DNA of 64,000 nucleotides from Acidovorax temperans (GTDB lineage Bacteria > Pseudomonadota > Gammaproteobacteria > Burkholderiales > Burkholderiaceae_C). A program made the position numbers and the translations under genes. The notes beneath the pieces are model-generated. The model saw only the letters and a program-made list of their open reading frames with translations, was not told the origin of the DNA and did no database searches. Every line of letters begins with the position of its first letter. Positions within the stretch are counted from its first letter, which is position 1. Location: positions 248,001 through 312,000 of the forward strand of contig NZ_VFPV01000004.1 of NCBI RefSeq assembly GCF_006716905.1, written 5' to 3'. This document shows, piece by piece, positions 47,564 to 49,333 of this stretch.

Positions 47564-48593
<1,030 letters not shown>

Positions 48594-48660
48594 CTATCTG
48601 CCGGGCAAGGGCCTGATCTGGATCTGCAAGCGCGAAATAGGCGCGCAGAAAGCCCCTTGG

Positions 48661-48825
48661 TTTGATGCAACTAATTGCGAGGGCTTGTAACTTTTTGTAC
48701 TTAATGCTAAGTTTGATTCCAGGCAGCCCCCTGCCTCCCGCTTTTTCCTCCCTGAGCGGGGCCTACTGGATGCTCCACGCATTCAGAGGCTTCTCAGCCC
48801 GGCCTTTGTGCCGGGCTTTTTTTTT
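48661..48825 (+). ncRNA. Candidate structured small RNA with anti-Shine-Dalgarno loop
   Basis: Between the divergent hemB and hemJ there is no protein gene, yet four stems follow one another on the plus strand: GGCAG/CTGCC (48722-48735), CCCGCT/AGCGGG (48737-48760) with loop containing TCCTCCC (48746-48752), TGGATGC/GCATTCA (48767-48785), and the terminator stem (48796-48817) with nine T. The second loop is complementary to ribosome-binding sites. A start near 48700-48715 is inferred; TTGTAA with a TAAGTT at 17 bases, just upstream, is a weak promoter candidate. Confidence 0.6.
48796..48825 (+). terminator. Strong intrinsic terminator with no upstream protein gene
   Basis: AGCCCGGC (48796-48803), loop CTTTGT, GCCGGGCT (48810-48817), then nine T. 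Plus-strand only; the previous plus-strand protein gene ends more than 4 kb earlier, so it marks a separate small transcript. Confidence 0.9.
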
Positions 48826-48901
48826 GTCCCGGCGGCTTTGAAAAAAGGGGCAAAACGCCACCCTGCCGCCGGGCGGCGAGCGGGGCGCTTAAACTGCCCG
48901 C

Positions 48902-49333
48902 ATGCTCTGGGTAAAAGCCTTTCACATCGTCTTCGTGGCCAGCTGGTTTGCCGGTCTGTTCTATCTGCCACGCATCTTTGTCAATTTAGCCATGGTGGCA
49001 CCCGATTCGGGGGCAGAGCGTGAGCGCTTGCTCCTGATGGCGCGCAAGCTGCTGCGGTTCACCACCATTCTGGCGGTGCCCGCCTTGGCGCTGGGGTTGT
49101 GGCTGTGGCTGGGGTACGGCATTGGCCTGCAAGGCCCGGGCAATGGGTGGATGCACGCCAAACTCACCATCGTTTTGCTGGTTGTGGGCTACCACCACGC
49201 CTGCGGCGTGCTGCTGCGCAAGCTGGCCAACGGCCAAAGCCAGCGCAGCCATGTGTGGTTTCGCTGGTTCAACGAAGCGCCTGTGGTGCTGCTGCTGATT
49301 GCGGTGGTGCTGGTGGTCGTCAAACCCTTCTGA
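48902..49333 (+). CDS. hemJ: Protoporphyrinogen IX oxidase, HemJ family
   Basis: 143-residue membrane protein with four hydrophobic helices. Family start MLWVKAFHIVFVASWFAGLFYLPRIFV (in parts, with conserved His8), WMHAKLTIVLLVVGYHHACG, and end WFNEAPVVLLLIAVVLVVVKPF match HemJ, which oxidises protoporphyrinogen IX to protoporphyrin IX. Some databases label the family CopD-like or UPF0093. Location beside hemB supports a haem role. Confidence 0.9.
   Translation: MLWVKAFHIVFVASWFAGLFYLPRIFVNLAMVAPDSGAERERLLLMARKLLRFTTILAVPALALGLWLWLGYGIGLQGPGNGWMHAKLTIVLLVVGYHHACGVLLRKLANGQSQRSHVWFRWFNEAPVVLLLIAVVLVVVKPF

Follow-up and report, generated by a model that had tools for sequence, protein, structure and literature searches.

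Locus organization and identity of the hemB-hemJ intergenic RNA

The window analysed here, a 64,000 nt stretch of the Acidovorax temperans genome, harbors a small RNA gene between hemB and hemJ (Table 1). A sequence-only reading of this DNA had reported an unannotated structured RNA at 48661-48825 with divergent haem genes as its neighbours, and these neighbours are borne out, with HemB encoded on the minus and HemJ on the plus strand. The element within this span is real, but the first ~59 bases lie upstream of the transcript, the 5′ end of which is inferred from the promoter. Folding of 48720-48825 reproduces the three hairpins and the terminator claimed for the plus strand, with TCCTCCC exactly where it had been placed (48746-48752), in the second loop, and with a T-run of nine residues at 48817-48825. 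A simple scan assigns eight pairs to the terminator stem (48796-48817). At -62.6 kcal/mol, the fold of 48661-48825 is more stable than that of every one of 200 dinucleotide shuffles (mean: -46.6; sd: 3.75; z: -4.27).

Table 1. Features of the hemB-hemJ intergenic region (window positions)
Feature	Position	Strand	Remarks
hemB, divergent neighbour	47571..48578	-	Porphobilinogen synthase PRK09283, 517.3 bits, over cut-off
-35 element TTGTAA, proposed sRNA promoter	48685..48690	+	Conserved in 28 distinct genus loci
-10 element TAAGTT, 17 nt after -35	48708..48713	+	Genus consensus TAAATT after TGC
Anti-hemB sRNA, ~105 nt	48720..48825	+	5′ end inferred from promoter, 3′ end from terminator; RF02837 match
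H1, 5′ hairpin AGGCAG-CCCC-CTGCCT	48721..48736	+	Beyond the Rfam model; compensatory changes
H2, hairpin with anti-Shine-Dalgarno loop	48737..48760	+	Fold from 48720
UCCUCCC loop, proposed seed	48746..48752	+	Conserved string
H3, differs between genera	48761..48790	+	Fold from 48720
Intrinsic terminator, nine T	48796..48825	+	Terminator scan and sequence
hemJ, downstream neighbour, 76 nt after the RNA	48902..49333	+	Pfam UPF0093, 146.2 bits, over cut-off; NCBIfam TIGR00701, 115.2 bits, below cut-off (138.05)

A search of the Rfam covariance models, proposed as a check in the sequence-only reading, showed that the element is not unannotated: positions 48734-48824 of the plus strand match the anti-hemB family (RF02837) at 53.9 bits (gathering score: 49.5). 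This is the sole gathering-level match returned by cmscan in the whole 64,000 nt, and RF02837 exceeds its cut-off only once in the A. temperans genome. The element is a real sRNA gene of this known family, carrying a CCUCCC loop on a CCCGC/GCGGG stem followed by a terminator, and having the divergent hemB neighbour that characterizes anti-hemB. The other families score poorly, with RF02278 reaching 26.3 bits on the element (gathering score: 50) and ncS025 matching it weakly, below its cut-off. No match to RF01719 or RF02232 (gathering score of both: 50) was found in the A. temperans genome at E<=0.001, nor on 48560-48920 at E<=1, and Spot 42 (RF00021; gathering score: 80) was absent at E<=0.001 from all 274 genomes searched, A. 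temperans included, while the E. coli control was detected.

RF02837 corresponds to the Bc7/ncS04 RNA of Burkholderia, which the window element resembles in its sequence and fold, scoring above gathering level, and also in its divergent hemB, its length of ~105 nt and its CU-rich loop. It differs in the downstream gene, which is hemJ and not engB, and in its longer third loop, which also exceeds that of the RF02837 model; it furthermore lacks ACTCCCCTTT, found in 4/19 loci from other families of the order. In B. cenocepacia, ncS04 is reported as 105 nt long by RACE and Northern analysis (PMC5688073) and as co-purifying with Hfq (PMC4603805), while an anti-hemB homologue has been predicted in B. 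pseudomallei (PMC3521395). The accession RF02837 was not found in the literature searched, where the term anti-hemB is also used for an antibody. Because H1 and the promoter could be placed together with the Rfam match, a transcript of ~105 nt is predicted, the length reported for ncS04.

The double-hairpin "toxic" sRNAs (RF02278, e.g. ncS27) share a CU-rich anti-Shine-Dalgarno loop and a terminator with the element, but have two hairpins and occupy another locus. One such RNA, a second anti-Shine-Dalgarno sRNA, is present in A. temperans (L157 1501-1562; G000:C1:1365654-1365715; 71.6 bits, over cut-off). The next two matches in this genome to R1, a covariance model of our own (L148; E: 2.0e-5 and L149; E: 0.007), lie behind coding frames and end in terminators but lack CCUCCC, and were rejected as paralogues.

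Conservation, covariation and promoter in relatives

Matches to RF02837 at E<=0.001 occur in 50/60 genomes, A. temperans included, of which 42 exceed the cut-off. Within the genus of the window the family is present in 30 of the 36 genomes, two of them weakly (G031 and G033), and has no match in the other six. Scores among the relatives reach 79.9 bits, compared to 53.9 in the window. Among the 80 named loci anchored on hemJ, 66 had an R1 match at E<=0.001, although 29 of the 80 were themselves in the model; of the 14 loci without such a match, five retain both hemB and hemJ (L085, L093, L100, L122 and L125). As the bare CCTCCC motif is too short to be counted in whole loci, the ten-base string CCTCCCTGAG was counted instead. 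It occurs once in the window and is kept in 28/28 genus loci, in 64/66 named loci with a model match, in 16/19 loci of other families of the order (hereafter order-level loci) and in 18/25 class-level loci. Loss of the stems and loop in relatives, by which the sequence-only reading was to stand or fall, was thus not seen, and its description of a structured, terminator-ended RNA gene with an anti-Shine-Dalgarno loop is supported.

The compensatory base changes which that reading had proposed to look for were found in an alignment (A1) of 46 sequences drawn from 107 extracted loci, in which the window sequence is joined by a further 16 loci from the genus and by 29 named loci. Truncated extractions, near-duplicates and most Polaromonas- and Hydrogenophaga-type loci were excluded and the order-level loci were aligned separately (A2), while H3, which MAFFT does not align correctly from one genus to another, was omitted from the pair counts. 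In these 46 sequences, four of the six H1 pairs and three of the seven terminator pairs are changed on both sides, with 95.3% of the H1 cells paired, and six of the seven H2 pairs are invariant. Overall, 97.3% of cells are paired (shuffles: 91.3%; slid partners: 40-66%), 71 cells are changed on both sides (shuffles: 19.6) and the covariation score is 0.270 (shuffles: 0.159; slid partners: 0.039-0.130). The two other measures of the five are close to the shuffles, namely pairs changed on both sides (7 versus 4.9) and pair types (17 versus 16.5).

Hairpin H1 is not covered by the 81-position Rfam match. When assessed without an alignment, the best stem ends at a constant distance before H2 in 97/107 loci, and 79/107 loci reach 0.05 against simple shuffles; the ungapped stem rule of this test gives L069, L070, L082 and L104 a score of zero. 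In more distant members the H2 stem varies while the loop is kept, as in L017 (CTCGC/GCGAG) and in L054, where an entirely different stem surrounds CTCCTCCCTGAG (alignment A2). The latter (L054 1959-2069; G059:C16) is a second match with an unchanged loop and neither HemB nor YihA nearby, in a genome that also has a copy beside hemB and engB. Loop lengths differ by single bases between relatives. A further string, TGTGTGACAGC, is found in 51/66 named loci with a match (L059-L138), in the middle hairpin of those that were aligned, and in none of the 28 genus loci, including the window, and possibly represents an additional seed that the genus has lost.

The proposed promoter is conserved at one register (TTGTAA-17-TAAATT) in 23 of the 28 distinct genus loci. 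Over the 28 loci the -35 element carries 1.1-1.8 and the -10 consensus 1.3-2.0 bits per position, and no position between -120 and -59 reaches 0.9 bits. The window is one of three loci in which the promoter is shifted by one base, its -35 element lying one base further upstream than in the commonest register. With 7/12 consensus matches, a -10 element weaker than the consensus and no entry in the promoter-scan list, the window copy of this putative conserved promoter is weak. The promoter is looser in the named loci, and unrecognizable at the same place in other families of the order. To the anti-hemB family the window gene contributes a securely anchored member, a 5′ hairpin that the Rfam model does not include, and a proposed promoter.

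Genomic neighbours and putative mode of action

All 28 strongly matching genus loci have a divergent hemB upstream of the RNA, and 27 of them have hemJ on the downstream side. Among the 19 order-level loci, which represent the genomes with RF02837 over cut-off out of 24 searched, hemB is upstream in 15, while the GTPase gene engB (yihA/ysxC) adjoins the RNA in all 19, being convergent downstream in 16 and upstream on the same strand in three; nine of nine EngB proteins checked pass the NCBIfam YsxC cut-off. None of the 19 has an adjacent hemJ, from which it follows that the RNA does not belong to this gene. In five mostly Hydrogenophaga loci (L059, L069, L070, L074 and L104) the sRNA is still next to hemJ and hemB is located ~1.5 kb away, implying an insertion between hemB and the sRNA, with the Hydrogenophaga locus L082 as an exception to this gap. 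Directly after its start codon, hemB carries CACCTCCCT (window 48567-48575, minus strand), in the sense of the sRNA loop itself and not of its complement.

We consider it likely that the element is a trans-acting anti-hemB regulatory RNA with its own promoter, the loop of which masks Shine-Dalgarno or other G-rich sites. The RNA would be transcribed from a σ70-type promoter, divergent from hemB, and would end at the strong intrinsic terminator, presenting UUUUUCCUCCCU in an apical loop. This loop may pair close to the start codons of several mRNAs, at Shine-Dalgarno sequences or other G-rich motifs, and such pairing would block ribosome binding, probably with Hfq. Repression at G-rich sites is proposed because the exposed and conserved CCUCCC is the complement of the Shine-Dalgarno core and because the C-rich loops of sX13 are reported to act in the repression of mRNAs that carry G-rich motifs (PMC3771888); for the A. 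temperans RNA, both this mode of action and the multiplicity of targets are thus putative. The 13-base complement of the loop occurs, with at most one mismatch, at eight places in the A. temperans genome, one of which is the sRNA gene itself. Only one of the other seven (L145) is followed within 18 nt by the start of a long frame, and no strong target was recognized among them. The near-invariant H2 stem in the family of the window is more than is needed by a simple model with a seed in a loop.

The name of the family suggests a regulator specific to hemB, acting in antisense or in trans, which would be compatible with the preferred reading. The divergent adjacent hemB in the genus and in most order-level loci, and the mention of hemB as a predicted target of Bc7 (PMC6321483), speak for it. 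However, pairing of the RNA with the start regions of hemB and hemJ is no better than with shuffles (hemB versus dinucleotide shuffles: z of +0.79 for the whole RNA and of +1.47 for the loop), the hemB start lacks a GGAGG ahead of it, and hemB turned up next to none of the 46 class-level loci, so that a role confined to this gene is unlikely and hemB is probably not a target via the UCCUCCC loop. A broader link with haem or iron, raised in the sequence-only reading, likewise finds no support and was rejected: neither hemB nor hemJ shows pairing above that of shuffles, hemJ is adjacent only in the family of the window, and in the qPCR table for ncS04 no significant change is given in the seven conditions, low iron included (PMC5688073). 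The generic fit of the loop to the Shine-Dalgarno sequence could also point to a decoy which titrates Hfq or ribosomal sites at large and not chosen mRNAs, but the near-invariant stem and loop flanks suggest more specificity than a decoy needs, rendering this quite unlikely.

The location of the RNA on the same strand as hemJ, 76 nt before it and with a terminator in between, as well as the presence of hemJ downstream in nearly all genus loci, could be explained by a cis-acting leader or attenuator operating as a terminator switch. The RNA is, however, conserved in the 19 order-level loci where hemJ is not adjacent and where engB is mostly convergent, and ncS04 of B. cenocepacia is shown flanked in the orientation <- -> <- (PMC4603805); with the neighbours differing outside the family of the window, a hemJ leader is very improbable and was rejected. 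Chance hairpins, or a small protein gene in the 59-codon open frame that crosses the element (48662-48841), can be given almost no credence in light of the folding z-score of -4.27, the compensatory changes, the single-base differences in loop length and the Rfam match.

Relationship to the sRNAs of the polA-engB locus

At the level of the class, RF02837 matches 124 of 274 genomes at E<=0.001, 14 of them over cut-off; part of the 124 may represent chance matches, since three of 14 control genomes (E. coli, Caulobacter and Deinobacterium) also match below the cut-off. Neighbours were surveyed for 46 distinct loci outside the family of the window, 28 taken from among the best matches and 18 picked from weaker or tandem matches (of 20 such picks, two repeated earlier elements). 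In 37/46 of these class-level loci polA is located upstream on the same strand and/or engB is adjacent, a count that was not itself selected for. The engB gene adjoins 29/46, convergent in all but one, and polA adjoins 28/46, while neither gene is found beside any of 25 unrelated loci of the A. temperans genome. Neither polA nor engB occurs in the 64-kb window, which thus does not show the polA-sRNA-engB arrangement.

For a second covariance model, R2, we used 26 RNAs from the class-level loci, all located beside polA and/or engB and none of them from the order of the window. Its members had been found with RF02837, such that sequence likeness was selected for, and only those with polA or engB neighbours were taken; L221 entered via RF01719, but on an element also matched by RF02837. 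R2 has a single match at E<=1 in the window (48715-48824; E: 2e-8) and at E<=0.001 picks out a single place in each of 30 genomes, out of 40 searched from the order, A. temperans included, every one coinciding with the RF02837 place. It misses three genus genomes which are RF02837-positive over or near the cut-off (G008, G011 and G016). It is very probable that anti-hemB belongs to a single family with the polA-engB RNAs of other orders.

Several known sRNAs share this location. As in the class-level relatives, sX13 of the Xanthomonadaceae (RF02232) follows polA and has C-rich apical loops, but it has three such loops and is described by its authors as Hfq-independent (PMC3771888). ErsA/Pseudomon-1 (RF01719) is a polA-engB intergenic sRNA (PMC8575079) with a weak model likeness to anti-hemB through intermediates, but is AlgU-dependent according to a review (PMC8395346). 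Spot 42 is encoded between polA and yihA (engB) in E. coli K-12, where the order of polA, spf and a reversed yihA is that of the class-level loci, but no sequence or model likeness to anti-hemB was found, and R2 has no match at E<=1 on the E. coli Spot 42 locus. R2 matches ErsA (L217; E: 7.6e-4) and sX13 (two matches; E: 9.8e-4 and 2.8e-3), scores which provide no clear step, given that the A. temperans RF02278 RNA, from another locus, scores nearly as well (E: 3.4e-3). RF01719 is matched at E<=0.001 in ten genomes, in six of them on the same element as RF02837 and below the RF01719 cut-off (G114, G123, G203, G215, G230 and G326), and RF02232 in 12, with three on the same element as RF02837 (G141, G230 and G293). 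Seven more RF02232 loci scoring below the cut-off were inspected, and in five of these both polA and engB are absent from the vicinity. Kinship of sX13 and ErsA with anti-hemB is therefore suggested but weak, and that of Spot 42 is positional only. Rfam places RF02837, RF01719, RF02232 and RF00021 in no clan.

On balance, we lean towards the view that a single ancient sRNA gene at the polA-engB locus gave rise to anti-hemB as its betaproteobacterial branch, and that sX13, ErsA and perhaps Spot 42 may descend from it as well. The ancestor would have had a 5′ hairpin, a hairpin with a CCUCCCUGAG loop, and C-rich loops both in the middle and in the terminator, with hemB subsequently replacing polA upstream in the order of the window and hemJ replacing engB in its family; under such replacement the "hem" neighbours would be accidental. 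The authors of the sX13 study noted that Spot 42 and the alpha-r7 RNAs have the polA locus in common with sX13, and raised the question of similar RNAs in other bacteria; anti-hemB is unnamed in that discussion (PMC3771888). While anti-hemB itself was already described, the class-wide locus connection looks new, not having been met in the literature searched for anti-hemB and, separately, for polA, Spot 42 and ErsA. If the locus argument holds true, what is learned from sX13, ErsA and Spot 42 would translate directly into predictions for anti-hemB throughout the order, and the sRNAs beside polA would become a testable case of common descent.

Tandem anti-hemB-like RNAs are furthermore observed downstream of polA in two class-level loci, with five R2 matches in one (L212 1956-2701; G322:C3) and four RF02837 matches in the other (L213 2049-2787; G230:C33).
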